64,000 bases of DNA, from assembly GCF_002288825.1 (NCBI RefSeq), contig NZ_NSLI01000002.1:1-64000 (forward strand), read 5' to 3'. The stretch's first letter is position 1, and the number at the start of each line of letters is the position of its first letter. The stretch comes from Sphingomonas lenta. Lineage in GTDB: Bacteria; Pseudomonadota; Alphaproteobacteria; Sphingomonadales; Sphingomonadaceae. The notes under the pieces were generated by a model. The model saw only the letters and a list, made by a program, of their open reading frames with translations, did not search any database and was not told where the DNA came from. Below, piece by piece: positions 2,190 through 64,000 of the stretch. The translations under genes and the position numbers were made by a program.

Positions 2190-4433
2190 CTGACCGTTCC
2201 GCGTTCATCCGTCCTGGCGACCACGCTTGCGCTGCTCTGCGCCGCCGAGGCGCACGCGCAGGATCTGCAGGACCGCCCCGCCGATCCGCCCACCGCCGTC
2301 GAGATCGCCTCGCCCGCGTCCGACGAGCAGATCACCTTCAGCACCGACCGGCTGGAGTACGACACGGAGGCGGACGTCGTCACCGCGGTCGGCGAGGTGC
2401 GGCTGGCGCGCGAGGGCAACCGCCTTCGCGCCGACCGCGTCGTCTACAATCGCCGCACCGGCCAGGTCGTCGCGACCGGCAACGTCGCCGTCACCAACCC
2501 GCAGGGCGACGTAGCTTACGGCGACTCGATCGAGCTGACCGACTCACTTCGCGATGGCGTGGTGGAGAATATCCTGGTCGTGCTCGACGAGGGCGGCCGG
2601 CTCGCCGCTGTACGCGGAACGCGCGACGAGAACGGCGTCGTCTCCGTCGAGCAGGCGGCTTACACGCCCTGCCCCGTCGTGGACCAGGAAGACTGTCGGC
2701 CCAAGGAGCCGAGCTGGAAGGTCACCGCGGTCCGCATCGTGTATCGTCCCGACCGTAGCCGCGTCTATTTCAGTCGCCCGCGCTTCCACTTGTTCGGGCT
2801 GCCCGTCATCCCGCTTCCCAGCTTTTCGACCACGGTCGGCGGGGGAAGCGACAACGGCTTCCTGAGCCCCGACATCGGTTACAGCCGGGCGAACGGCGTG
2901 GAGGTTACCACGCCCTATTATTTCCGTCTGGCCCCGAACCGCGGGCTGACGGTCGCGCCTACCGTCTTCTCGCACGTGCTGCCGATGCTACGCACCGAAT
3001 ACCGGCAGCTCGATGAGCTCGGCGCGTTCCGGCTGACGGGCTACATCACCGCGAGCCGCCGCAGCGACGACTTGGTCGTGCAGCAGCCGACCGACCGCGA
3101 CATGGCGCTGCGCGGTTATCTCGACGGCGTCGCGCGCTATCAGCTGTCGCCCAACTGGTCGGCCAGCGGCTCGCTCCGGATAGCCAGCGACCGCACCTTC
3201 CTGCGCCGCTACGACATTTCGCGCGACGACCGCCTGCGCAACACCGCGCGGCTCGAGCGGATCGACGCCGACAGCTACCTGTCCTTCACCGGCTGGGCGG
3301 TGCAGACGCTCCGCGTCGCGGACCCGCAAGGTCTGCAGCCGATCGCCCTGCCCGAGATCGACTATCGCCGCCGCTTCGCCGACCCCTGGCTCGGCGGCCG
3401 GTTCGAGGCGCAGCTCAACACGCTGGCGCTGACCCGTACCGCCGGCCAGGACACGCAGCGCGCGTTTGCCTCGCTCCGCTGGGACCTCAGGCGCATCACG
3501 ACCTTGGGCCAGGAGGTGACGTTCACCGGCTACGCCCGCGCCGACGCCTACCACACGAACGACACGCTCTCCACGACCGTCGTCAACTATCGCGGGAACG
3601 AGGGCTTCACTGGCCGCGCGATCGGGGCGGCGGCGGTGGACGTGCGCTGGCCCTTCATCGGCCGGTTCATGAACGGCACGCAGCGGCTGATCCCGCGCGT
3701 GCAGCTCGTCGCCTCCCCGCGCATCCGCAACCTCGACATCCCCAACGAGGACGCACGCGCGATCGACCTGGAGGACTCCAACCTCTTCGCGCTCAACCGC
3801 TTTCCCGGTTACGACCGCTTCGAGGACTCGTCGCGCGTCACCTACGGGCTGCAATGGATCGCCACGCTGCCGGGCGTCGCCGTCGACGCGGTCGTCGGCC
3901 AGAGCTACCGCCTCGTCGACCGGCCAAGCATCTTGCCGGAAGGAACGGGACTTTCCGACCAGTTCTCCGACTATGTGGGCCGCACCGAGGTCCGCTTTCG
4001 CGACTTCGTCTCACTCACCCACCGCTTTCGCCTCGATAAGGACAATCTGGCGATACGCCGGAACGAGTTGGACGCGGCGATCGGCACGCGCGACACCTAC
4101 GCGCTCGTCGGCTATCTCCGCCTCAACCGCGACATCGACCTCGCCAACGAGGACCTGCGCGACCGCGAGGAGGTGCGCGTGGCGGGCCGGGTTCAGTTCG
4201 CGCGCTTCTGGTCGGCCTTCGGCTCCGCCGTCGTGGACCTCACCAACCGCGACGAGGACGTGCTGTCGCTGTCCGACGGCTTCGACCCGATCCGCCACCG
4301 TTTGGGCGTCCAGTACGAGGACGACTGCCTCCGCCTCGGCTTCACCTGGCGCCGCTTCTACCAGGCGACCGGCGACGCGCGCAGCGGGAACGGGTTCCTC
4401 CTCACCCTTTCCTTGACCAACCTGGGCCGCTAA
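2190..4433 (+). CDS. lptD: LPS-assembly outer-membrane protein LptD
   Basis: Outer-membrane beta-barrel that inserts lipopolysaccharide into the outer leaflet with LptE; about 747 aa. A signal peptide ends near AEAHAQ; then comes an OstA/LptA-like beta-jellyroll region (LRADRVVYNRRTGQVVATG) and a long beta-barrel rich in alternating aromatic and charged strands, ending in the typical aromatic pattern LRLGFTWRRFYQ. Cysteines occur near CPVVDQEDC and in DDCLRLGF, consistent with LptD disulphides. An in-frame TAA at 2175 limits the start: the only codon that keeps the signal peptide is CTG at 2190, preceded by AAAGGG. Starting at the first GTG/ATG-type codon would lose the signal peptide, so the CTG start is inferred. 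It is the first gene of lptD-surA-pdxA-rsmA. Confidence 0.93.
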   Translation: MTVPRSSVLATTLALLCAAEAHAQDLQDRPADPPTAVEIASPASDEQITFSTDRLEYDTEADVVTAVGEVRLAREGNRLRADRVVYNRRTGQVVATGNVAVTNPQGDVAYGDSIELTDSLRDGVVENILVVLDEGGRLAAVRGTRDENGVVSVEQAAYTPCPVVDQEDCRPKEPSWKVTAVRIVYRPDRSRVYFSRPRFHLFGLPVIPLPSFSTTVGGGSDNGFLSPDIGYSRANGVEVTTPYYFRLAPNRGLTVAPTVFSHVLPMLRTEYRQLDELGAFRLTGYITASRRSDDLVVQQPTDRDMALRGYLDGVARYQLSPNWSASGSLRIASDRTFLRRYDISRDDRLRNTARLERIDADSYLSFTGWAVQTLRVADPQGLQPIALPEIDYRRRFADPWLGGRFEAQLNTLALTRTAGQDTQRAFASLRWDLRRITTLGQEVTFTGYARADAYHTNDTLSTTVVNYRGNEGFTGRAIGAAAVDVRWPFIGRFMNGTQRLIPRVQLVASPRIRNLDIPNEDARAIDLEDSNLFALNRFPGYDRFEDSSRVTYGLQWIATLPGVAVDAVVGQSYRLVDRPSILPEGTGLSDQFSDYVGRTEVRFRDFVSLTHRFRLDKDNLAIRRNELDAAIGTRDTYALVGYLRLNRDIDLANEDLRDREEVRVAGRVQFARFWSAFGSAVVDLTNRDEDVLSLSDGFDPIRHRLGVQYEDDCLRLGFTWRRFYQATGDARSGNGFLLTLSLTNLGR

Positions 4434-4521
4434 GCGCAGGTTCAGCGTATCGCGACTAGCAGGGCGGCCGGCGGGGGCAGGCCCCTTTATCGCCTAAGTC
4501 ATTCGTGGGGTTGGAAAAGAC

Positions 4522-5871
4522 GTGAAGCATCTCGTGTTCAAGGCGCATGTCGCCGCCGTGTCGCTGGCGATCGGTCTGGCGGGCGCGGGCTGGGCGCAGA
4601 CGGTCCAGGACAACAGCGTGCCCGATACGGGCGGGCTGAACATCCCGTCCAACCTGCAGATTTTCGGCAAGGTCGATCCCAACGTCCGCAAGGCGACGGC
4701 GATCGTCAACGATACCGTGATCACGGGCACCGACGTCGACCAGCGCGTGGCGCTGATCGAGGCGGCGAACAACACCAAGATCGCGGGCGAGGAGCGCGAG
4801 CGGCTGAAGCTGCAGGTGCTGCGCCAGCTGATCGACGAGACGCTGCAGATCCAGGAGGCGGCGTCCAAGGAGATCACGGTGACGCCCGCCGAGCTCAACC
4901 AGAGCTACAACCGCGTCGCTCAGAACTTCAAGCAAAGCCCCGCGCAGTTCACGCAGTACCTGCGCCAGAACGGCTCCTCCGAGCGCTCGCTACGTCGCCA
5001 GATCGAGGGCGAGCTGGCGTGGCAGCGCTATCTCCGCCGCCAGATCGAGCCGCTGACCAATGTCGGCGAGGAGGAGGTCAAGTCCATCCTCCAGCGCATC
5101 GAGCAGTCGAAAGGCGCGACCGAGTACAACCTCCAGGAGATCTACATCGCCGCCCCGCCCGAGCGCGCTGCGGAAGGAGCCGCGAACGCGCAACGGATTA
5201 TGCAGGAGATCGGCAAGCAGCAGCAGCCGTTCGCCTATTACGCGCGTAACTTCTCGGAGGCGACGACGCGGTCCACGGGCGGCGATCTGGGCTGGGTCCG
5301 CGCCGAGACGCTACCTCCTGAGATCGCGCAGGCCGCCGCGCAGATGCAGGTCGGGCAGGTCGCCGGCCCCGTCGAGGTGCCGGGCGGCTTCTCGATCCTG
5401 TACCTGACCGACAAGCGCCAGGTGCTGACCGCCGACCCGCGCAACGCCCGGCTCAGCCTGAAGCAGCTGACCGTGCGCTTCCCGGAAGGCGTGACGCAGG
5501 CGCAGGCTACGCAGCGCGCCGCCGCCTTCGCGGAAGCGACGCGCGCGCTCCGCGGCTGCGGCACCGTCGACCAGCTCGCCGCGAAGCTCGGCGCGGAGGT
5601 CGTCGACAATGACACGGTCCGCATCCGCGACCTGCCGGCGCAGCTTCAGGAAATCATGCTGAACCTGCAAGTCGGTCAGAGCACGCCGCCCTTCGGCACG
5701 CCGCAGGAAGGCGTGCGCGCGCTGGTGCTGTGCGGCCGCGACGACGCGCAGAGCGCCCAGCTCCCCTCGGTCGAGCAGGTGCAGAACCAGCTCGAACAGG
5801 CGCGCGTCAACCTGCGCGCGCAGCAGAAGCTGCGCGACCTGCGCCGCGACGCGATCGTCGAGTATCGCTGA
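4522..5871 (+). CDS. surA: Periplasmic peptidyl-prolyl isomerase/chaperone SurA
   Basis: Chaperone that escorts outer-membrane proteins, including LptD, through the periplasm; 449 aa. A signal peptide (MKHLVFKAHVAAVSLAIGLA) ends near GWAQ. Residues of about 50-170 form the SurA N-domain (ATAIVNDTVITGTDVDQRV). Two parvulin-like segments follow, one from about 195 (EYNLQEIYIAAPP to GDLGWVRAETLPPEIAQA) and a more diverged one from about 310 (LSLKQLTVRFPEG). It starts 88 bases after lptD and is separated from pdxA by a single base, an arrangement conserved across proteobacteria. Confidence 0.95.
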   Translation: MKHLVFKAHVAAVSLAIGLAGAGWAQTVQDNSVPDTGGLNIPSNLQIFGKVDPNVRKATAIVNDTVITGTDVDQRVALIEAANNTKIAGEERERLKLQVLRQLIDETLQIQEAASKEITVTPAELNQSYNRVAQNFKQSPAQFTQYLRQNGSSERSLRRQIEGELAWQRYLRRQIEPLTNVGEEEVKSILQRIEQSKGATEYNLQEIYIAAPPERAAEGAANAQRIMQEIGKQQQPFAYYARNFSEATTRSTGGDLGWVRAETLPPEIAQAAAQMQVGQVAGPVEVPGGFSILYLTDKRQVLTADPRNARLSLKQLTVRFPEGVTQAQATQRAAAFAEATRALRGCGTVDQLAAKLGAEVVDNDTVRIRDLPAQLQEIMLNLQVGQSTPPFGTPQEGVRALVLCGRDDAQSAQLPSVEQVQNQLEQARVNLRAQQKLRDLRRDAIVEYR

Positions 5872-11154: not shown

Positions 11155-12324
11155 CTAGCACGCACGCCGGAGCCGCGCGACGAAAAATCCGTCGGTACGG
11201 TCCCGCGCCGGGCTGAGCCGCAGTCCGGCCCCATGTGGGCGTCCGACCGGCAGGTTCAACGCCTCCGCGCGCCAGTCCGGATGCGCGGCAAGGAACGCGT
11301 CGACCTGTCCCCGCCCCTCCTCGTCGAGCAGCGAGCAGACGATGTGCACCAGCGCGCCGCCGGGCCTGACCAGCTCGGCCGCGACGTCGAGCAGGTGCGC
11401 CTGCGTCTTGACCAGTCGCGCGAGCCGCTCGGGCGTCAGCCGCCAGCGTGCTTCGGGGTTGCGCCGCCACGTGCCCGTTCCGGAACAGGGCGCATCCACC
11501 AGCACGCAATCCGCCGCGCCGCGCCAGTCCTCCAGCGCGTCCAGCTCGCGTCCGGGTTTGAGCAGCCGCGTCTCCACGATCGATATCCCCGCCCGCTCCG
11601 CCCGAGGTCGGAGATTACTCAGCCGCCCTCGATCGGCGTCGGTCGCGAGGATCAGCCCCTCGTTCCGCATCGTCGCGGCGAGCGCCAACGTCTTGCCGCC
11701 CCCACCAGCGCATAGATCGACAATCCGCTGGCCCGGCTCGGCCTGCGCTGCGAGCGTTACCGCCTGGCTACCAGCGTCCTGCACCTCGACGAGCCCTGCG
11801 AGCGGGGTCACGTCCGTCCCCGCCGGTAGCCTGAGCGCGGCCGGCAATCCGGGAACCGCCTCCGCCCCCGGCAGTCGTCCCGCGATCTCGTCCGGATCGG
11901 CCCGCAACCGGTTCACCCGCACGTCGAGCGGCGCTCGCTCGACCAGCGCCGCCCCCTCCGCCTCGTCCAGTCCCGACGCCGCTAGCTTGTCGAGGAGCCA
12001 GCCCGGCGCGATCCCCCGCGTGGCGACCGGCTCGCCCGGCGCGATCGGCCTCGGCCCATGCGCGCTCCCGTCGAACGTCGCCTCGACCGCCGGGTCGCCC
12101 AGCGCCAGCACCGCCGCCCGCCCGCTCGCCGGCGCCTCGCCGCACGCGCGAATCGCCGCGAACACCAGCTCGCGCACCGCCCGCCGGTCCTTCGACCCGG
12201 CGTAGCGCCGCTGCGCGAAGTAGCGCTGCACCACCGTATCCGCCGCCGCCCCGCCCTCGCGCGCGGCGGCGGTGATCTGGTCGATGAGCTCGATCGCAGC
12301 TTGGGTACATGCTGCCGGCGTCAC
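11155..12324 (-). CDS. RsmB/NOP2-family RNA (cytosine-C5)-methyltransferase
   Basis: 389 aa from the GTG at 12324. The N-terminal ~125 residues resemble the NusB-like domain of RsmB (VVQRYFAQRRYAGSKDRRAVRELV). The C-terminal Rossmann domain has SAM motif IVDLCAGGGGKTLALAATM, the catalytic Cys motif VLVDAPCSGTGTWRRNPEARW and the second Cys in VHIVCSLLDEEG. This two-cysteine arrangement is that of m5C RNA methyltransferases; the most likely target is 16S rRNA C967. The frame continues upstream through a hairpin repeat (translated as PSPRPSPQRGEG), which I exclude from the gene. Confidence 0.88.
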   Translation of the reverse strand: MTPAACTQAAIELIDQITAAAREGGAAADTVVQRYFAQRRYAGSKDRRAVRELVFAAIRACGEAPASGRAAVLALGDPAVEATFDGSAHGPRPIAPGEPVATRGIAPGWLLDKLAASGLDEAEGAALVERAPLDVRVNRLRADPDEIAGRLPGAEAVPGLPAALRLPAGTDVTPLAGLVEVQDAGSQAVTLAAQAEPGQRIVDLCAGGGGKTLALAATMRNEGLILATDADRGRLSNLRPRAERAGISIVETRLLKPGRELDALEDWRGAADCVLVDAPCSGTGTWRRNPEARWRLTPERLARLVKTQAHLLDVAAELVRPGGALVHIVCSLLDEEGRGQVDAFLAAHPDWRAEALNLPVGRPHGAGLRLSPARDRTDGFFVARLRRAC

Positions 12325-12331
12325 TTCTTCT

Positions 12332-12447
12332 CCCTCTCCCCTCTGGGGAGAGGGCCGGGGAGAGGGGCAGTGCGTCACCGCATCGCCAGCTCCTGCCCCT
12401 CTCCCGCCTTCGCTACGCTCGGCACCCTCTCCCCAGAGGGGAGAGGG
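12332..12447. repeat. Paired GC-rich hairpin repeat (REPIN-like, family 1)
   Basis: About 116 bases with CCCTCTCCCCTCTGGGGAG at the left and the inverse CTCCCCAGAGGGGAGAGGG at the right, so the whole element is a long imperfect palindrome whose ends are themselves hairpins. It sits six bases from the guaB stop and just upstream of the RsmB-like gene. The same core appears at 25862-25886 and inside fmt at 27838-27955. Placement at a 3' end suggests a role in transcript ending or mRNA stability (inference). Confidence 0.85.
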
Positions 12448-12453
12448 ATAGGA

Positions 12454-27096: not shown

Positions 27097-28095
27097 ATGC
27101 GGTTGATCTTTATGGGAACACCCGATTTCGCGGTGCCGGTGCTGGATGAGCTGGTTGAGGCAGGGCACGAGCTGGCGGCGGTCTATACCCAGCCGCCGCG
27201 GCCGGGCGGGCGGCGCGGGCGACAGCTGGTCCCCTCCCCCGTCCAGGCGCGGGCGGAGGCGCTCGGTATCGAAGTGCGCTCGCCGACGTCGCTGCGGAAG
27301 GCGGAGGCGCAGGAGGCGTTCGCGGCGTTGCGCGCTGACGCGGCGGTGGTCGCGGCGTACGGGCTGATCCTGCCGCAGGCGGTGCTCGACGCGCCGCGAT
27401 ACGGGTGCCTCAACGTGCACGCGTCGCTGCTGCCGCGTTGGCGGGGCGCGGCGCCGATCCAGCGGGCGATCCTGGCGGGCGACGCGGAGACGGGCGTCGG
27501 CATCATGCAGATGGAGGCCGGGCTGGATACCGGGCCGGTGCGGCTGGAGGGACGGACGCCGGTCGCGGGCAAGAACGCGGGCGAGCTGACGGCGGAGCTG
27601 TCCGCGATGGGCGCGCGGTTGATGGTGGAGGTGCTGGGCGACCTGGACGCGCACCCGCCGGCGCCGCAGCCGGACGAAGGCGTGACCTACGCGCCGAAGA
27701 TCGAGAAGGCGGAAGCGCGGCTGGATTTCACGCAGTCGGCGGCGGAGGTTGAGCGGCAGGTGCGCGCCTTCGCGCCTGCGCCGGGGGCATGGTTCGAGGT
27801 GACGGGCGAGCGTGTGAAGGTGCTGGCGTGCGACCTCCTCCCTCTTCCCTCCGGGGAGAGGGGCGAAGCTGCGCAGCAGCGAGGGGAGAGGGGCAGTGCC
27901 GACGCGGTGGCATACTTCCCCTCTCCCCGGCCCTCTCCCCGGAGGGGAGAGGGAGTGGTCTTGGACGACCGGCTCACCATCGCCTGCGCCGACGGGGCAA
28001 TCCGCCCCACTCTCGTCCAGCGCGCCGGGCGCGGGGTGACGTCGGCCGCCGACCTGCTACGCGGCTTTCCGATCCCGGCGGGCACGCGGCTTTGA
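27097..28095 (+). CDS. fmt: Methionyl-tRNA formyltransferase with in-frame repeat insertion
   Basis: 332 aa; family members are typically 300-315. N-terminal domain [19 protein letters not shown], catalytic region [20 protein letters not shown] (about 107-126) and [17 protein letters not shown]. The C-terminal OB-like domain ([20 protein letters not shown]) is interrupted after VKVLACDL by about 40 residues, including [16 protein letters not shown] and [13 protein letters not shown], encoded by a family-1 hairpin repeat, and resumes at [20 protein letters not shown]. The frame is kept, so the protein is probably still active, with a surface loop in the tRNA-binding domain. Start ATG 27097, chosen over 27079 by homology; the stop overlaps the truA TTG. 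Confidence 0.95.
27838..27955. repeat. Family-1 paired hairpin repeat inside fmt
   Basis: About 118 bases starting with a CCTCTTCCCTCCGGGGAGAG hairpin and ending with CCCTCTCCCCGGAGGGGAG plus AGGGAG. Both ends are inverse hairpins as in the intergenic copy at 12332-12447, and the middle carries the same GGGGCAGTGC stretch. It lies wholly within the fmt reading frame without creating a stop. Confidence 0.85.
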
Positions 28096-28829
28096 CCCGC
28101 TTCGCGCTGACGGTCGAGTATGACGGCCGGCCCTTCATGGGCTGGCAGCGCCAGGATCACGGGCCGAGCGTGCAGCAGGCGCTGGAAGAGGCCGCGCACG
28201 CGGTCACGGGCGAGCGGGTCGCGGTCCATGCGGCGGGGCGGACGGACGCGGGGGTGCATGCTCTTGAGATGCGCGCACACATGGACGTGGAGAAGCCGAT
28301 CGCGGCGTTCCGGCTGATGGAGGCGCTTAACGCGCGGGTGCGGCCGCACCCTGTCGCGGTGCTCGCGTGCGAGGAGGTGCCGGACGACTGGCACGCACGG
28401 TTCAGCTGCACGGGGCGGGCGTACGAGTACCGGATCGTCAACCGCCGCGCGCCGCTGAGCTGGGAGGCGGGGCTGGCGTGGCGGGTGCCGCAGATGCTGG
28501 ACGCCGACGCGATGGCGGCGGCCGCGCGGGTGTTGGTGGGGCGGCACGACTTCACGACGTTCCGGTCGGTGCATTGCCAGGGGGGTAGTCCGGTGAGGAC
28601 GCTCGACCGGCTGGACGTGGTGCGCGAGGGTGAGCGGATCGCGGTCCACGCGGCGGCGCGATCGTTTCTGCATCACCAGGTGCGCTCGATGGTGGGATGC
28701 CTGGCGCTGGTGGGCTTGGGGCGGTGGTCCGTGGACGACGTGCGCGATGCGCTAGAGGCGCGGGATCGGGCGCGGCTGGGGCTCAACGCGCCGCCGGACG
28801 GGTTGTGGTTCGTGGGGGCTACCTACTGA
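28092..28829 (+). CDS. truA: tRNA pseudouridine(38-40) synthase
   Basis: 245 aa from TTG at 28092, which overlaps the fmt stop (TTGA) and gives [21 protein letters not shown]. Catalytic Asp52 in [27 protein letters not shown] and [17 protein letters not shown] are further family motifs. Modifies uridines 38-40 in the anticodon arm of many tRNAs. Translationally coupled to fmt; its end overlaps the RlmD-like gene convergently by 11 bases. Confidence 0.95.
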
Positions 28830-34555: not shown

Positions 34556-34757
34556 CCTCCCCCGCAACGCAGATGCGGGGGAGGGGGACCGCGCCCGTAG
34601 GGCGTGGTGGAGGGGGGCGTAGGTCGATCAGCGACAAGCCGGGGGCTTCTCGCCGACCGGAGCCGGCTTGCGGAGCAAGCCGCGGGGATACCGCATCCCG
34701 TAGCTCCCCCTCCACCAGCTTCGCTGGTCCCCCTCCCCCGCTGTAAGCGGGGGAGGA
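34556..34757. repeat. Long paired hairpin repeat (REPIN-like, family 2)
   Basis: Begins CCTCCCCCGCAACGCAGATG and ends in the inverse CCCCCGCTGTAAGCGGGGG plus AGG. Internal inverse pairs (GGTGGAGGGG near the left, CCCCTCCACC near the right) make the whole about-200-base element fold on itself. The right end is 11 bases from the stop of the first M13 peptidase gene. It fills the otherwise empty 253-base gap to cckA. Related copies are at 36797-36934 and 42055-42184. Confidence 0.85.
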
Positions 34758-34767
34758 ACTTAGGGAG

Positions 34768-36771
34768 TTACCAGATCCGGACGCGCTGCTCCGGCGCTAG
34801 GTACAGCTTCTGGCCCGGCGTCACCTTGTACGCCGCGTACCAAGGGTCGAGGTTGCGCACGACCGCCACGCGCTGCTCGGACGGACTATGCGTGTCGGTT
34901 AGGATGCGTTGCCGCAAATTCGCCTCGCGGTAGTTGCGTCGCCACACCTGCGCCCAGCCCAGGTAGAAGCGCTGGTCGCCGGTGAAACCGCCGATCACCG
35001 GCGCGGGCTTGCCGTTGAGCGACTTCTTGTACGCGTCGTAGGCGACCGCCAAGCCGGCCAGGTCGGCGACGTTCTCGCCGAGGGTCAGCGCCCCCTTCAC
35101 GTTTAGGCCGGGCAGCGCCTCGTAGGCGTCGTACTGCGTGACGAGCGCGGCGGTGCGCTGCTTGAACGCGGTTAGGTCCTGCGGCGTCCACCACTCGACG
35201 AGCCTGCCGGAGGCATCGAACTTAGACCCTTGGTCATCGAAATGGTGGCTGATCTCGTGGCCGATTACCGCACCGATGCCGCCATAGTTGATGGCAGGGT
35301 CGGCCTTCGGGTCGAAGAAAGGCGGCTGCAGGATCGCGGCGGGAAACACGATCTCGACCATGCCGAAGTTGGCGTAGGCGTTGATCGTCATGGGGGTCAT
35401 GCCCCACTCCCAGCGCTGCAGCGGCTTGCCGAGGTGCTGGACGTTGTAGTCGTGCGCCCACTGGTTCGCGCGCAGCATGTTGCCGAACGCGTCGCCCGGC
35501 GTGATCCGGAGGTTTGAATAGTCGCGCCAGCGGTCGGGGTAGCCGATCTTGGGCGTGAACGCGGCGAGCTTGGCGCGGGCGGCCTTCTTCGTCTCGGGCG
35601 CCATCCAGTCGAGGCGCTCGACGCGGTCGCCCATGGCGGCGAGCACGTTCCTGACCAGCTCGTCGGCAGCCTTCTTCGTCTCGGGCGGGAAGTGGCGGGC
35701 GACGTACACCTTGCTGACCTCGTCCGACAGCGCGGCGGAGGTGAAGTCGACGGCGCGCTCCCAGCGCTCCTCCTGCTCGGGCGTGCCGGACAGCGTCGTG
35801 CCGTAAAAGCTGAACTGCTCGCGGTCGAAAGCGGAGGGCAGGACGTCGGCGAAACCGTCGAGCGAGCGGATCATCAGCTGGTCCTGCAGCACCTGCACCG
35901 GCGCCGCCTGGATAGCGGCGGCGATGCCGGTCACCGCGCTGGGCTGGCCGACGATGACGGTGTCGACGGGCGTGCCGACGCCGCGCAGATAGGCGGCGAA
36001 GTCGAAGCCCGGCGCGGACTGCGCCAGCTGCGCCACCGTCATCTTGTTGTAGGTCTTGGTCCGGTCGCGGCTCTCGACGCGCGTCCAGTGCGCGTTGGCG
36101 ATCCTCGTCTCGAAGTCGAGCACCGCCTTGGCGCGCGCCTCCGCATCCGGCTCGCCGGCGAGCTGGAGCACGCGGGCGAGGTGCGCCTGGTACTTCGCGC
36201 GCGTCTCGACGAGCTTGGGGTCGCTCGATAGGTAATAGTCGCGGTCGGGCATGCCGAGCCCGGCCTGGCGCATGCCGACGGCGTAGATCTCGGGTTGCTT
36301 CGCGTCCTGGCCGACGCCGGTCGCGAACGGGACGGGCACGCCGTTGCGGTCGGCCTGGGCGGCGAGTGCGGCGTAGGCGGCCTTGTCCTTCAGGCCCTTG
36401 ATGCGGTCGAGCCAGGGCTTGATCGGCCCTAAGCCCTTCGCCACGATCGCGGCAGTGTCGAGGTAGGCGCCGTAGGCGACGCCGATCTTGCTGTTCGCCG
36501 CGCGCGCCTCGTCCAGGATCTTGCGCGTGCGCTCCTTGGACAGGTCGTCGAGGAAGTTGAACGCGCCGTAGTTCGCCTTGTCGGCGGGGATGGGCGTGTT
36601 CTTGGCCCAGGTGCCGTTGGCGTAGTCGTAGAAGCCGTCGCCCGGCGCGGCCGAGCGGTCCATGCCCGCGGTGTCGAAGCCGAAGGTGCCGTAGGCGGGC
36701 TTGCCGGAGGTCTGGGCGACGCCGGCGACCGCGGTCGCGGCAAGGAGGGCGGTGAGGATGAGGCGTTTCAT
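34768..36771 (-). CDS. M13-family zinc metallopeptidase (PepO/neprilysin-like), copy 1
   Basis: 667 aa with a signal peptide (MKRLILTALLAATAVAGVA). Family motifs: zinc site VIGHEISHHFDDQG (HExxH), third ligand in GENVADLAGLAVAYDAY, and the substrate segment NAYANFGMVEIVFPAAIL. The C-terminus reads YLAPEQRVRIW, lacking the usual final CxxW but identical in layout to copy 2. Predicted periplasmic endopeptidase on small peptides. It lies downstream of a close paralogue on the same strand, the pair being separated and followed by family-2 hairpins. Confidence 0.95.
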   Translation of the reverse strand: MKRLILTALLAATAVAGVAQTSGKPAYGTFGFDTAGMDRSAAPGDGFYDYANGTWAKNTPIPADKANYGAFNFLDDLSKERTRKILDEARAANSKIGVAYGAYLDTAAIVAKGLGPIKPWLDRIKGLKDKAAYAALAAQADRNGVPVPFATGVGQDAKQPEIYAVGMRQAGLGMPDRDYYLSSDPKLVETRAKYQAHLARVLQLAGEPDAEARAKAVLDFETRIANAHWTRVESRDRTKTYNKMTVAQLAQSAPGFDFAAYLRGVGTPVDTVIVGQPSAVTGIAAAIQAAPVQVLQDQLMIRSLDGFADVLPSAFDREQFSFYGTTLSGTPEQEERWERAVDFTSAALSDEVSKVYVARHFPPETKKAADELVRNVLAAMGDRVERLDWMAPETKKAARAKLAAFTPKIGYPDRWRDYSNLRITPGDAFGNMLRANQWAHDYNVQHLGKPLQRWEWGMTPMTINAYANFGMVEIVFPAAILQPPFFDPKADPAINYGGIGAVIGHEISHHFDDQGSKFDASGRLVEWWTPQDLTAFKQRTAALVTQYDAYEALPGLNVKGALTLGENVADLAGLAVAYDAYKKSLNGKPAPVIGGFTGDQRFYLGWAQVWRRNYREANLRQRILTDTHSPSEQRVAVVRNLDPWYAAYKVTPGQKLYLAPEQRVRIW

Positions 36772-36796: not shown

Positions 36797-36934
36797 CCTC
36801 CCCCGCTTTAGCGGGGGAGGGGGACCAGCGCAGCTGGTGGAGGGGAGCTACGGGATGCGGTATCGTGATGTACCCCCTCCACCACTCGCTACGCGAGCGG
36901 TCCCCCTCCCCCGCATCTGCGATGCGGGGGAGGA
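36797..36934. repeat. Paired hairpin repeat (family 2)
   Basis: About 138 bases: CCTCCCCCGCTTTAGCGGGG at the left, GCATCTGCGATGCGGGGGAGG at the right, with the inverse GGTGGAGGGG/CCCCTCCACC pair and a GGGATGCGGTATC stretch also seen inverted in the 34556 copy. It lies between the two M13 genes, ending about ten bases from the stop of copy 2. Confidence 0.85.
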
Positions 36935-36944
36935 ATTTAGAGGG

Positions 36945-39011
36945 TCACCAAATCCGGACGCGCTGCTCGGGCGACAGGTAGAGCGCGTCGCCCTGCTTCG
37001 ACCCGAACGCCTGATACCAGGGATCCAGGTTGCGCACGGTCAGCACGCGGTAGTGGCCCGGCGAGTGCGGGTCGGTCTTGAGCGCGTTCAACAGCGCGGG
37101 CTCGCGCTCCTTGCTGCGCCACACCTGCGCCCAGCCGTAGTAGAATCGCTGGTCGCCCGTGGTGCCGTCGATCACCAGCGCGGGCTTTCCGCCGAGCGAG
37201 CGGCGATAGGCGTCGAGCGCGACCGTCAGCCCCGCCAGGTCGGCGATGTTCTCGCCCAGCGTCAGCTCGCCGTTGATCTTCTGACCCGGCAGCGGCTCAT
37301 ACGCCGCGTACTGCGCCACGAGCTGGTCGGTGAAGCGCTTGAACTGCGCCACGTCCTGCGGCGTCCACCAGTCGGTGAGCGCGCCCCTGGCGTCGTACTT
37401 GCGGCCCTGATCGTCGAAGTGATGGCTGATCTCGTGGCCGATCACAGCACCTATGCCGCCATAGTTGACCGCCGGGTCGGCCTTCGGGTCGAAGAAAGGC
37501 GGCTGGAGGATCGCGGCCGGGAACACGATCTCGTTCATGACCGGGTTGGCGTAGGCGTTGATGGTCATGGGCGTCATGAACCACTCGCCCCGGTCGATCG
37601 GCGCGCCCAGCTTGTTGAGGCCGCGCTGGTACTCGAAGGCGTTGGCGCGCGCGACGTTGCCGACCAGGTCGCCCGGCACGATGCGGAGCGCCGAATAGTC
37701 GCGCCACTTGTCGGGATAGCCGATCTTGGGCGTGAAGCTGGCGAGCTTGGCCTTCGCCTTCACCTTGGTTTCGGGCGCCATCCACTCGAGCTTGTCGAGC
37801 CGGTCGCCCATCGCGGCGATGACGTTGCGGACGAGCTTGTCGGCCTCCTGCTTGGCCTCGGGCGGGAAGTATTTGGCGACGTATTGCTGCCCGATCGCCT
37901 CGCCCATCGCGCCCGAGACGAGGTTGACGCCGCGCTTCCAGCGGACCTGCTGCTGCGGCGTGCCGGACAGCGTTGTCCCGTAGAAGGCGAAGTTGGTCTT
38001 GTCGAACTCGGCCGGGAGGTAGCCGGCGTAGCTGCGCAGCGTGCGCAGCATCGCGAAATCGCGCAGCGTGTCGATCGGGGTGGCCGCGAACAGCTTCGCC
38101 TCGCCGGTGAAGGCGCTGGGCTGGGCGACGAGGTAATAGGGCTGGTTCGCGACGCCCATCGCCTGGAAGTACGACCCCCAGGGGAAACCCGGCGCCTTGG
38201 CGGCGAAGTCGGCGGCGGTCCACTTATTGTAGGTCTTGTCGGCGTCGCGGCTGTCGACGCGCGTCCAGTGCGCCTGCGCGATCTGACGCTCCATCTCGTA
38301 CACGGCGTTCGCGCGCGCCGCAGCGTTCGGCTCGCCGGCGAGCGTCAGCATCTTGGCGAGATAGGCCTTGTAGGCGGTCTGGATCGCGGCGAACTTCGGG
38401 TCGGTCCCGAGGTAGAAGTCGCGGTCGGGCAGGCCGAGGCCGCTCTGGCCGAACTGCGCGACATAGGTGTCGGGCTTCTTGTCGTCCTGGCTGACATAGG
38501 CCGAGAACAGGCCGCCCACGCCGTGGCGCTGCAGCTTCGCCATCTCCAGCGCGAGCGCGTCGCGCGTCTTGGCGGCCTTGAGCCCGTCGAACCAGGGCTT
38601 GAGCGGAGCCAGGCCCCTCGCCTCGACCGCTGCCTCGTCCATGAAGCTGGCGTAGAAGGTGCCGACCTTGTCGCCGGAGCGCCTGGACGCGTCCTCCAGG
38701 ATCAGGCGCGTGCGCTCCTGGCTCAGGTCCTGCAGGCGGTGGAACATGCCGAACGAGGCGCGGTCGGCGGGGATCTCCGTCGACTTGTCCCACGTGCCGT
38801 TGGCGTATTTGTAGAAGTCCTGCCCCGGCGCGACGCTCGTGTCGCGGCCCGCCATGTCGAAGCCGAAGGTACCGAGCGCCGGCTTGCTGCCCGTCTCGGC
38901 GGGCGCGGCGGCGGTACGGTGGGCCGCATGGCCGTCATGCGACTGGGCGAGGGCGCCGCCGGTCAGGGCGACGGTGACGAGCAGCGACGAAACGAAAAGC
39001 GACTTCCGCAT
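36945..39011 (-). CDS. M13-family zinc metallopeptidase, copy 2
   Basis: 688 aa with signal peptide (LFVSSLLVTVALTGGALAQS) followed by a His-rich stretch (SHDGHAAHRTAA). Zinc motif VIGHEISHHFDDQGRKYD, third ligand in GENIADLAGLTVALDAY, substrate segment NAYANPVMNEIVFPAAIL, and C-terminus YLSPEQRVRIW. Clearly paralogous to copy 1 over the full length. First gene of the pair; an AT-rich stretch and ATCCTTTTCGC lie just upstream of the start. Probably periplasmic; the His-rich N-terminus might help capture zinc (inference). Confidence 0.95.
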   Translation of the reverse strand: MRKSLFVSSLLVTVALTGGALAQSHDGHAAHRTAAAPAETGSKPALGTFGFDMAGRDTSVAPGQDFYKYANGTWDKSTEIPADRASFGMFHRLQDLSQERTRLILEDASRRSGDKVGTFYASFMDEAAVEARGLAPLKPWFDGLKAAKTRDALALEMAKLQRHGVGGLFSAYVSQDDKKPDTYVAQFGQSGLGLPDRDFYLGTDPKFAAIQTAYKAYLAKMLTLAGEPNAAARANAVYEMERQIAQAHWTRVDSRDADKTYNKWTAADFAAKAPGFPWGSYFQAMGVANQPYYLVAQPSAFTGEAKLFAATPIDTLRDFAMLRTLRSYAGYLPAEFDKTNFAFYGTTLSGTPQQQVRWKRGVNLVSGAMGEAIGQQYVAKYFPPEAKQEADKLVRNVIAAMGDRLDKLEWMAPETKVKAKAKLASFTPKIGYPDKWRDYSALRIVPGDLVGNVARANAFEYQRGLNKLGAPIDRGEWFMTPMTINAYANPVMNEIVFPAAILQPPFFDPKADPAVNYGGIGAVIGHEISHHFDDQGRKYDARGALTDWWTPQDVAQFKRFTDQLVAQYAAYEPLPGQKINGELTLGENIADLAGLTVALDAYRRSLGGKPALVIDGTTGDQRFYYGWAQVWRSKEREPALLNALKTDPHSPGHYRVLTVRNLDPWYQAFGSKQGDALYLSPEQRVRIW

Positions 39012-60084: not shown

Positions 60085-60210
60085 CCCTCTCCCGCTTTCG
60101 CGGGAGAGGGACAGCGGCGCAGCCGCAGGGTGAGGGCCCGCTCTCGACAGGTACTGCCCTCACCCTGGCGCGTGCCGCGCCTGTCCCTCTCCCGCGAAAG
60201 CGGGAGAGGG
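60085..60210. repeat. 126-bp paired hairpin repeat (family 3), copy A
   Basis: Starts CCCTCTCCCGCTTTCGCGGG and ends CCGCGAAAGCGGGAGAGGG. The terminal inverted repeats are about 30 bases, and an inner pair (CAGGGTGAGGGC / GCCCTCACCCTG) is also inverse, so the element is one long palindrome. Copy B at 63479-63604 is the same length with five differences, all transitions. Located between the SDR stop and the gyrA promoter. Confidence 0.9.
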
Positions 60211-60227
60211 CTAAGGTGTCGCTCCCT

Positions 60228-60316: not shown

Positions 60317-63121
60317 TTGGCCGACGACACCGCCCTCGCCGACCCCATCCAGTCCATTTCCATCGTCGACGAGATGAAGTCCAGTTATCTGGACTACGCT
60401 ATGAGCGTCATCGTCGCGCGCGCGCTGCCCGACGTGCGCGACGGCCTGAAGCCCGTGCACCGCCGCATCCTCTACTCGGCGGCGGAGAGCGGCTTCACCT
60501 ACAATCGCCCCTATCGCAAGTCGGCGCGCATCGTCGGCGACGTCATGGGTAAGTACCACCCCCACGGCGACAGCGCGATCTACGACGCGCTCGCGCGCAT
60601 GGCGCAGGACTGGTCCATGCGCGTGCCGCTGATCGACGGCCAGGGCAATTTCGGCTCGATGGATCCCGATCCGCCCGCCGCGATGCGCTACACGGAGGCG
60701 CGGCTGGCGCGCGTCACGGGCGCGCTGCTCGACGACCTCGACAAGGACACGGTCGACTTCCAGCCCAACTACGACGCCTCGGAACGCGAGCCGCAGGTTC
60801 TCCCGGCGCAATTCCCCAACCTGCTCGTCAACGGCGCGGGCGGCATCGCAGTGGGCATGGCCACTAACATCCCGCCGCACAATCTCGGCGAGGTGATCGA
60901 CGCCTGCCTGGCCTATATCGACAACGGCGCGATCACCGCGGAGGAGCTGCAGGAGATCGTTCCCGGTCCCGATTTCCCGACCGGCGCCATCATCCTCGGC
61001 CGCGCGGGCGCGCGCTCGGCATACAATACCGGCCGCGGCTCGATCATCGTCCGCTCGCGCCACGAGATCGAGGAAGGGCGCAACGACCGCCGCTCCATCG
61101 TGCTGACCGAGATCCCCTACCAGCAGGGCAAGAACGCCCTGGTCGAGAAGATCGCCGAGGCCGCCAAGGAGAAGCGGATCGAGGGCGTCACCGACGTCCG
61201 CGACCTGTCCAACCGCGAAGGCGTGCGCATCGTCATCGACCTGCGCCGCGACGCCACGCCTGAGGTGGTGCTGAACCAGCTCTGGCGGCACACGCCCGCG
61301 CAGTCGAGCTTCTCCGCCAACATGCTCGCCATCCGCGGCGGCCGGCCGGAGCTCCTCAACCTTCGCGACATCATCCAGGCGTTCGTCCAGTTCCGCGAAC
61401 AGGTCATCACGCGGCGCTCGAAGTTCGAGCTCGCCAAGGCCCGCGAACGCGCCCACATCCTGCTCGGCCTCGTCATCGCCGTCACCAACCTCGACGAAGT
61501 GGTGGCGCTGATCCGCGGCTCGCGCAGCCCGGCGGAGGCGCGCGACAAGCTGCTCGCCCGCGAGTGGCCGATCGCGGAGATCCTGCCCTACATCCGCCTC
61601 GTCGAGGCGATCGAGCACGAGGTGGAGGGCGACACCTACCGCTTGTCCGACGCGCAGGTGAAGGCGATCCTCGACCTCCGCCTGAACCGCCTGACCGCGC
61701 TCGGCCGCGACGAGATCGGCGACGAGCTCAAGCAGCTCGCCGCCTCCATCACCGAGCTGCTCGAGATCCTGGCGAACCGCGCCAAGCTCTACGAGGTCAT
61801 GCGCGGCGAGCTCCGCGCCGTCCGCGACCAGTTCGCGACGCCGCGCCGCACCGAGATCGCGGCAGCGGCCGAGGGCATCGACGACGAGGACCTGATCGAG
61901 CGCGAGGACATGGTCGTGACCGTGACCATGCAGGGCTACATCAAGCGCACGCCGCTCGACACCTTCCGCGCCCAGCGCCGCGGCGGCAAGGGCCGCGCCG
62001 GCATGGCGACCAAGGAAGAGGACGCGATCGCCAAGCTGTTCGTGACCTCCACGCACACGCCCGTGCTGTTCTTCTCCACGCACGGCAAGGTGTACCGCAT
62101 GAAGGTGTGGCGCCTGCCCGAGGGCGGTCCCGCCACCCGCGGCCGGCCCATGATCAACCTCCTGCCGCTCGCGCCCGGCGAGACGATCTCGACCGTGCTC
62201 CCGCTGCCCGAGGACGAGGCGAAGTGGGGCGACCTCCACGTCATGTTCGCCACCGCGAACGGCACGGTGCGTAGAAACTCGATGGACGCGTTCACCAACG
62301 TGCCGTCGAACGGCAAGATCGCGATGCGCTTTGATGAAGGCTCGGACGACTGCCTCGTCGCCGTCGCGCTCCTGACCGAGGAGGACGACGTGCTGCTCGC
62401 GACCAAGGGCGGCCGCGCGATCCGCTTCGCCGCGACCGACGTGCGCGAGTTCCAGAGCCGCACCTCGACCGGCGTGCGCGGCGTCAGCCTCGCCGAGGGC
62501 GACAAGGTCATTTCGCTCTCCATCCTCAAAGGCTTCGCCGCGACTACCGAAGAGCGCGAGGCGTACCTCCGCGCCGCTCCGTGGAAGGAGGGCGAACGCG
62601 AGATGTCGCTGTCGCCGGAGCGCATGGCCGCGTTCGAGGAGGCGGAGGAGTTCATCCTCACCGTCACCGCCAACGGCTACGGCAAGCGCACCAGCGCCTA
62701 CGAATATCGCCGCACCGGCCGCGGCGGCCAGGGGATCACCAATATCGTGACCTCCGACCGCAACGGCCCAGTGGTCTCCTCCTTCCCTTCGCACAATGGC
62801 GAGCAGCTCATGCTCGTCACCGATCAGGCCAAGCTCATCCGCATGTCGGTCGGCGACACGCGCGTGACCGGCCGGAACACGCAGGGCGTCAGGCTGTTCG
62901 ACGTGGCGGCGGACGAGCACGTCGTCTCCGCCGCCCGCATCGACGAGGCGGAGGACGCCGAGGATCCCGCCGAGGAGGAGGTCATCGCCGAAGTGCGTGA
63001 CACGCCCGCGCAAGCGCCCGACCCTGACAAGCAGCTGACCGTGGACGACGGCACCAGCCCGCACACCATGGCCGAGCGGGTCGATGAGAGTGGGGACGAG
63101 AGCGGGGAGGAGGACGAATGA
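60317..63121 (+). CDS. gyrA: DNA gyrase subunit A
   Basis: 934 aa. Cleaves and rejoins DNA in the A2B2 gyrase that adds negative supercoils. N-terminus [20 protein letters not shown]; quinolone region [15 protein letters not shown] with Ser86 and Asp90 (the Ser83/Asp87 positions of E. coli) unaltered; catalytic Tyr125 in [12 protein letters not shown]; GyrA box [11 protein letters not shown] at about 553, needed for DNA wrapping. The C-terminal beta-pinwheel repeats follow ([40 protein letters not shown]) and end in an acidic tail. TTG start 60317, no better start upstream. The stop overlaps the DUF952 gene. Confidence 0.97.
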
Positions 63122-63478: not shown

Positions 63479-63604
63479 CCCTCTCCCGCTTTCGCGGGAG
63501 AGGGACAGCGGCGCAGCCGCAGGGTGAGGGCCCGCCCTCAACAGGCACTACCCTCACCCTGGCGCGTGCCGCGCCTGTCCCTCTCCCGCGAGAGCGGGAG
63601 AGGG
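63479..63604. repeat. 126-bp paired hairpin repeat (family 3), copy B
   Basis: Same length and structure as 60085-60210, with five transition differences counted by eye (four in the central loop, one in the right hairpin). Located between the convergent DUF952 and PilZ genes, where it may end both transcripts (inference). Confidence 0.9.
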
Positions 63605-63612
63605 CTAGAATG

Positions 63613-64000
63613 TCACCGCCGCCACAGCCCCAACAACCCCCGCGGCTTGGGCGGCGGCGCCTCCGCCTCGGCGCGTAGCCGGTCGAACCCGGCCACGGCT
63701 TCCTCCGACCGCAACACCGCCTCCAGTTCCTCCGCCTCCAGCGGCGCCTGGAACAGGCACCCGTACCCGTTCCCGTCCCGCCGCACGACGCGCACCTCGC
63801 GCGAGCTGCCCGCGGGCAGCGCGGCGGTGAACCGCGCCCAGAGCGGCAACTCGATCGGCGATCGCACGAACATGCCCGTGGCCGAGATGTTCGCCGCCTC
63901 CGCCTCCACGGTCGCCGTCTCCGTCCGGTCGAGCGTGATCACGAAGGAGACGGGGACGCGGGCTGCGCCCCGGCGCTCGGCGGGCTGTGTCGCGGGTTCG
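63613..64000 (-). CDS. PilZ-domain protein (partial, runs past window end)
   Basis: The 3' end is inside the window; reading continues past 64000. The visible 129 codons hold a PilZ domain: ERRGAARVPVSFVITL, where R-x-x-x-R is the c-di-GMP binding element, and AEAANISATGMFVRS, matching the (D/N)xSxxG second motif. The C-terminus is Pro/Arg-rich (PKPRGLLGLWRR). A short form could start at the ATC/GTG near 63942, but that would cut off the R-x-x-x-R motif, so the true start lies beyond the window. Predicted c-di-GMP receptor. Confidence 0.8.
   Translation of the reverse strand, partial: EPATQPAERRGAARVPVSFVITLDRTETATVEAEAANISATGMFVRSPIELPLWARFTAALPAGSSREVRVVRRDGNGYGCLFQAPLEAEELEAVLRSEEAVAGFDRLRAEAEAPPPKPRGLLGLWRR

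Follow-up and report, generated by a model that had tools for sequence, protein, structure and literature searches.

In-frame palindromic repeats of more than one kind in a single loop of Sphingomonas methionyl-tRNA formyltransferase

The fmt gene and its hairpin insert

The window, by which we mean the whole 64,000-nucleotide stretch of DNA analysed here, is part of a 3.76-Mb genome and contains the gene fmt, whose product matches TIGR00460 with 258 bits (cut-off 201.5), with recR upstream on the opposite strand and truA downstream (Table 1). An earlier note on this DNA had placed a hairpin repeat in frame inside fmt, and this was borne out: the element begins exactly at a codon boundary (27838 opens codon 248, offset 741), it is free of stops in all six reading frames and it is multicopy. 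The open frame of truA reaches back through the repeat in a different reading frame. The element starts with CTCCCTC and finishes with GAGGGAG, the fold predicted for 27835-27960 is stable (-101.5 kcal/mol), and the DNA of the fmt loop folds with z = -8.6 relative to dinucleotide shuffles.

Table 1. Features of the window discussed in the text
Feature	Position	Strand	Basis
fmt, methionyl-tRNA formyltransferase, 332 aa including the insert	27097-28095	+	TIGR00460, Pfam Formyl_trans_N and Formyl_trans_C
Paired-hairpin repeat, family A, 118 bp, fmt codons 248-286, in frame, stop-free	27838-27955	+	Sequence comparison, fold
Outer arm 1, complementary to outer arm 2	27838-27865	+	Opposite-strand self-match, 93%
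Outer arm 2	27928-27955	+	Opposite-strand self-match, 93%
truA conserved part, downstream of fmt	28098-28829	+	ORF 27789-28829; TIGR00071 match at ORF residues 104-339
Second copy of family A, start of open frame upstream of RsmB-like conserved part	12330-12448	-	80% identity; inverted repeat

The note had also stated that about 40 residues were added after VKVLACDL. The position is right, since the approximately 39 residues encoded by the insert directly follow VKVLACDL, but the size is not: the loop segment GERVKV..IACADG counts 64 residues against 33 in the commonest loop across the genus group, a net gain of 31. The ancestral residues of the VEGSGAPG type are absent, and the hairpin thus replaced part of the old Fmt loop.

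The AlphaFold2 model of the window Fmt has a mean pLDDT of 90.7, with 257 of the 332 residues at 90 or above, and its top structural matches are solved Fmts, including the tRNA complex 2FMT. Residues 251-280 have a pLDDT of 48-60 per block. In the model, the Fmt fold is well predicted and the insert is left floppy, as a predicted unordered loop, in agreement with the loop position that the earlier note had proposed to check by modelling. In another Fmt (L037), family A hairpins flank the residues MILDPA; the mean pLDDT of its model is 92.5 and the first of these residues remain a short strand (261-263). Family A hairpins likewise surround a stretch (MVIDPAS-like) resembling the native Fmt strand in the Fmts of L112, L115 and L119.

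Family A copies in this genome

Family A gave 77 BLAST pieces (E<=0.01) in this genome, which merge into 32 places, and together with the fold score of the fmt copy this argues that the repeat is not due to chance. The second copy in the window reads PSPRPSPQRGEG at the very start of the open frame 11158-12453 on the minus strand. RsmB-type profiles match this frame from residue 143 on only, with none reaching its cut-off, and the earlier note was thus justified in assigning the repeat string to an extension upstream of an RsmB-like gene.

We examined 26 distinct family A places out of the 32 (the first 30 loci), fmt included; for the remaining 25, every frame that crosses the element and reaches 60 codons or more beyond it in both directions (20 frames) was scanned with Pfam. 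As far as these scans show, the element lies inside genes at three of the 26 places (fmt, dnaE and hrpB), and the other 23 are intergenic or start extensions. The repeats just 5' of genes for an acyl-CoA dehydrogenase, tyrS, tsaE and metH (L002, L014, L020 and L026) were judged to be start extensions. Among the 26 copies (three of them genic), a mean of 5.27 out of six frames is open, compared with 3.86 in shuffles; even intergenic copies have few stop codons, and this helps a repeat to survive in frame. An Rfam search returned 13 matches at E<=1, nearly all to miRNA families far below their gathering scores; such matches would fit any GC-rich hairpin and were set aside.

The Fmt loop across the genus group

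The best named Fmt relatives of the window are Sphingomonas species, and the genus group is treated here as Sphingomonas. Fmt was searched in 121 genomes, including that of the window, and the loop could be read in 119, the census leaving out one locus that was cut off (L219) and one partial (G006). Two genomes, G025 and G087, have an Fmt frame that is interrupted before the loop is reached, an interruption we put down to sequence errors. Long hairpin inserts occur in 16 of the 119 loops, all in frame. The insertion is missing in relatives, as the earlier note had suggested should be examined, the other 103 loops having no long hairpin insert. According to family labels assigned by eye (A to F), four of the 16 inserts belong to family A and twelve to a CGTC type in four variants, B to E (Table 2). 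Fmt inserts are also found in named assemblies of other species (L036, L037, L040, L041, L042 and L055), including those of a third kind, family F. The presence of other hairpin kinds at this loop in relatives had escaped the earlier note.

Table 2. Hairpin families in Fmt and BLAST pieces in individual genomes (G025 and G014 lie outside the 16 carriers and have short loops with repeat-like remnants)
Family	Fmt carriers	BLAST pieces by genome
A	window, L112, L115, L119	G118 28, G109 9, G003 72, G014 7
B	L116, L117, L121, L134, L193	G030 67, G068 47, G021 73, G072 7, G052 2
C	L114	G101 80, G113 99
D	L118, L120	G009 12, G112 62
E	L113, L122, L123	G061 66, G065 32, G099 30, G113 66, G025 21
Mixed E + C	L148	
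F (third kind)	L041, L042 (S. jeddahensis, S. lycopersici)	

The representatives of families B, C, D and E resemble one another by BLAST and most have CGTC-type ends, so that most of the Fmt census consists of variants of one CGTC type, whereas no mutual BLAST match was found among the representatives of A, F and the CGTC type. In the mixed carrier L148 (G113), two different CGTC-type families are adjacent in a loop segment of 95 residues. For copy number, the carriers' own genomes were searched for families A to E, at most 40 candidate stretches per genome being scored. In 13 of the 15 other Fmt carriers 9 to 99 pieces were found; since pieces include the fmt copy, both strands and separate arms, the places are fewer than the pieces. 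Counts are low in G072 (7), G052 (2) and G109 (only 9).

Runs of at least eight extra residues occur in 19 rows, of which three show no recognised repeat, and all lie at consensus positions 251-259 of 301; this leaves out a separate run in L229, set aside because the frame there stayed open and the run is at its C-terminal end. L223 (a 52-residue segment on a long branch), L135 and L150 (9 extra residues) are not recognised repeats and were set aside as well. The single A hairpin of L142 brings almost no net gain in length. A short-loop motif, (P/A)Gx(V/I/L), is present in 67 of the 103 insert-free loops compared with 1 of the 16 insert-bearing ones; it also occurs in 57 of 74 further named rows, among which other genera are well represented. 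Fold z falls below -4 in only 7 of the 16 carriers. A decayed hairpin was also considered for the LPFSFPGGEG-type loop found in a large Fmt clade; by eye, its DNA shows no clear palindrome.

Independent gains on the loop-free Fmt tree

A quick maximum-likelihood tree was built from 138 Fmt proteins with the loop removed, including the 16 census carriers together with L036, L040, L041 and L042; it contains 46 open forks. Filled rows are scattered over this tree, on which presence and absence require at least 16 changes, or 18 when family labels are taken into account. The window row has no well-supported sister on it and, in our search, no close relative of the window fmt lacking the insert was found (the nearest Fmt core is 82% identical), so that pairs of filled and empty loops were taken from other species. 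The filled L112 is sister to the empty L178 (SH-aLRT 100, genes 86% identical), the filled L121 is paired with the empty L194 (SH-aLRT 98), and L119 contrasts with L139 (SH-aLRT 95). One small clade unites L116 (family B), L115 (an A dimer) and L142 (one A hairpin), with SH-aLRT values of 83 and 86. L118 and L120, whose genes are 90.5% identical, have a single D insert in common by descent.

Inserts in dnaE, hrpB and metH

The family A hairpin is also in frame in the dnaE (L017) and hrpB (L007) genes of this genome, with conserved domains on either side. L017 encodes the DNA polymerase III alpha subunit (DnaE equivalog PRK05673, 1113 bits, cut-off 1002), its insert falling between the PHP and polymerase parts, at about E. 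coli residues 304-317 by alignment, and L007 encodes the helicase HrpB (TIGR01970 match). In relatives, the DnaE and HrpB loops are filled by other hairpins too. Each was sampled from the 30 best-scoring loci and 40 hand-picked regions (39 readable for HrpB). All 70 DnaE loops are in frame, and 10 of them have at least 50 residues and a fold z of -3.0 or lower, while fold z is below -3 in 28 of the 69 HrpB loops, two of them short; as best-scoring matches favour carriers and the regions were picked by hand, these counts are not unbiased rates. Two of the 69 HrpB loops stand apart: the insert is clearly out of frame in L346, and L343 is ambiguous. In L346 (G082) a stop follows the insert and the frame is broken; in L343 (G023) the frame breaks at the hairpin together with an ambiguous base, possibly an assembly fault. 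HrpB is a dispensable protein. A fourth gene, metH, has an in-frame hairpin in G017 (L307, frame 2726-5509, residues ~693-730) and an in-frame insert at the same place in G092 (L308), the inserts separating two parts that each match solved methionine synthases.

Slow change of the inserts

Between orthologues, the inserts diverge at a much lower rate than fourfold sites close by. For one hrpB insert common to seven species, fourfold differences summed over pairs, which are not independent, amount to 38/621, against 1066/2685 upstream and 466/1441 downstream. In four of the hrpB genes (L272, L281, L282 and L283) the arms and spacer show 0/192 fourfold differences, whereas outside the value is 0.19-0.45 and the transition at the insert boundary is sharp. 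Of all spacer positions, 4.3% differ. A second hrpB hairpin, in three related species, shows 9/86 fourfold differences against 154/390 and 75/198. In the fmt pair L118/L120, pS is 0.079 and pN 0.113 in the insert, compared with a dS of 0.28 and 0.52 in the flanks, and what is conserved is therefore not obviously the peptide.

Pairing in the hrpB fold is broken in 27 of 342 cells; changes on one side were seen in four and on both sides in none, which gives no covariation support. Differences run at 0.051 in paired versus 0.107 in unpaired positions. Gene conversion by paralogues was considered as a source of the slow hrpB change: among the matches listed, full-length paralogues in those genomes are at most 86% alike, against 91-100% for orthologues, so that copying from paralogues is no obvious explanation of the sameness, although identity reaches 98-100% in short arms, where conversion may have played a part. 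Orthologous copies at other places were compared in six sets, with the metH insert as one, all chosen for their similarity and so biased towards conserved copies; p was 0.018-0.092, in four sets lower than in either 40-bp flank and in the other two intermediate between the flanks. Since orthologous copies elsewhere are also well conserved, the slow change is not peculiar to coding inserts.

Relation to known palindromic elements

The kind of element is already known, from Rickettsia palindromic elements and from intragenic REPs, and what is new is that one loop has been used again and again by hairpins of more than one kind. In the portions available of the sources used here, the Rickettsia elements (Ogata 2000, 2002) are described as ~105-150 bp long, inter- and intragenic, and in frame in conserved genes, and the product of an element-bearing guanylate kinase gene is reported to be translated and active (PMC2229807, PMC10969869). 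The window repeat is likewise multicopy, palindromic, intergenic and in frame in conserved genes, and the analogy drawn in the earlier note seems to us a sound one; it is a likeness by description, and the hosts here are GC-rich (elements 68-76% GC), with one loop reused by several repeats.

The sphingomonads include E. litoralis and S. alaskensis. These two species are among the hosts of intragenic copies of the CGTC and GTAG REPs covered by the accessible part of Di Nocera 2013 (PMC3733652). That part also mentions a REP inside DnaE of R. conorii, as well as different REPs near one recB site in two Xanthomonas; such same-site REPs are given there for recB only, other genes of that class having them at different sites. 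It gives no transposase association for CGTC repeats. Most inserts of families B to E share with these REPs the CGTC ends and two facing hairpins, whereas family A of the window has no CGTC tag at its ends. Family A resembles the GTAG REP/RAYT systems in its short paired hairpins, mostly intergenic, but the window element has no GTAG ends and no match to the Y1 (RAYT) transposase PF01797 was found in this genome, the control search being positive in 6 of 14 genomes; this transposase was therefore rejected as the mover. Enterobacterial RU/ERIC repeats have open frames fused in frame to genes (Delihas 2007, PMC2759123), in other hosts, and the phrase "same position" is absent from the accessible portion of that paper. 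Among the papers listed by our search of a partial literature, none dealt with in-frame palindromes in Sphingomonas fmt.

Origin of the inserts

We consider it probable that palindromic repeats insert widely, that most coding insertions are purged, and that a few permissive loops are refilled repeatedly. A copy of a REP-like palindromic repeat dimer would have landed in frame in a loop of the Fmt C-terminal domain, and would be translated as a flexible bulge of about 39 residues that leaves the enzyme fold intact; we infer that activity is retained. Several repeat kinds in the genus would insert at many places, selection would clear nearly all insertions from conserved genes and leave survivors in the few loops that tolerate extra residues, and the Fmt loop would have been filled independently many times by whichever repeat was active in each lineage. 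The slow change at fourfold sites is left unexplained by this reading and counts against it, as an idle bulge does not predict it in the hrpB inserts. In another reading, the loops are preferred targets, a copying machinery directing palindromes to certain sites, and the structure of the hairpin as DNA or mRNA is what preserves it, through translation speed or mRNA stability. The refilling of the fmt, dnaE and hrpB sites by different hairpins speaks for such targeting, as do the sharp-edged lack of fourfold differences in the four hrpB inserts, for which paralogue copying is no obvious cause among the matches listed, and the low insert divergence of L118/L120; the likewise well-conserved orthologous copies elsewhere (in similarity-picked sets) and the hrpB fold, in which no pair has changed on both sides, argue against it, and we regard it as unlikely. 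A still bolder proposal, that the fmt, dnaE, hrpB and metH loops are true docking sites for directed, unrelated palindromes kept nearly constant between species by selection on DNA or mRNA structure, is in our opinion doubtful; if true, mobile palindromes would have become regulatory parts within coding sequences. Tolerance best explains why hairpins of more than one kind occupy the one loop repeatedly; the bold alternative is targeting combined with a role at the nucleotide level.

If the loop had been filled only once, in the ancestor of the genus, and the repeat had since been lost or replaced by others through recombination, the different families within the small clade of L116, L115 and L142 could be accounted for. 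The short-loop motif, common to empty loops and to the other named rows and missing in 15 of the 16 carriers, would need to be recreated by exact excision, and this, together with the scatter of filled rows on the tree, makes such a history improbable. Yeast mitochondrial byp elements are hairpins skipped by the ribosome, and the very stable hairpin predicted within fmt could similarly be bypassed, or removed like an intein, and so be absent from the protein; a bypassed insert would be free to carry stops or shift the frame, yet the 16 Fmt carriers and the 70 DnaE loops are without exception in frame and stop-free, and no intein domain appeared in the Pfam scan of Fmt, so that we give this idea very little credence. 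That the assembly of this genome is chimeric here or has collapsed a repeat, for which the ambiguous base and frame break of the hrpB L343 hairpin could be quoted, is just as hard to credit: three of its genes carry the element with their frame intact, and the chimera objection raised in the earlier note is countered by the in-frame inserts that recur in independent assemblies, among them the named assemblies of other species listed above.

Whether such repeats land where proteins tolerate them or alter activity was open before, the available part of PMC3733652 arguing both ways, with loops suggested as a neutral place and altered activity also speculated upon. The refilled fmt, dnaE and hrpB loops of this one genus group, with their empty relatives, form a natural replicate set that makes this question testable and that maps loops of universal enzymes accepting foreign peptides.

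Other repeats in the window

A different kind of paired hairpin occurs twice, at 60085-60220 and 63479-63614 (136 bp each, 94% identity), flanking the ORF 60317-63121, which we take to be gyrA-like. Between 34552 and 42106, copies of the palindrome CCCCTCCACCAGCTTCGCTGGTCCCCCTCCCC lie close to a region duplicated in tandem, whose two copies (34747-36727 and 36924-38910) have diverged.
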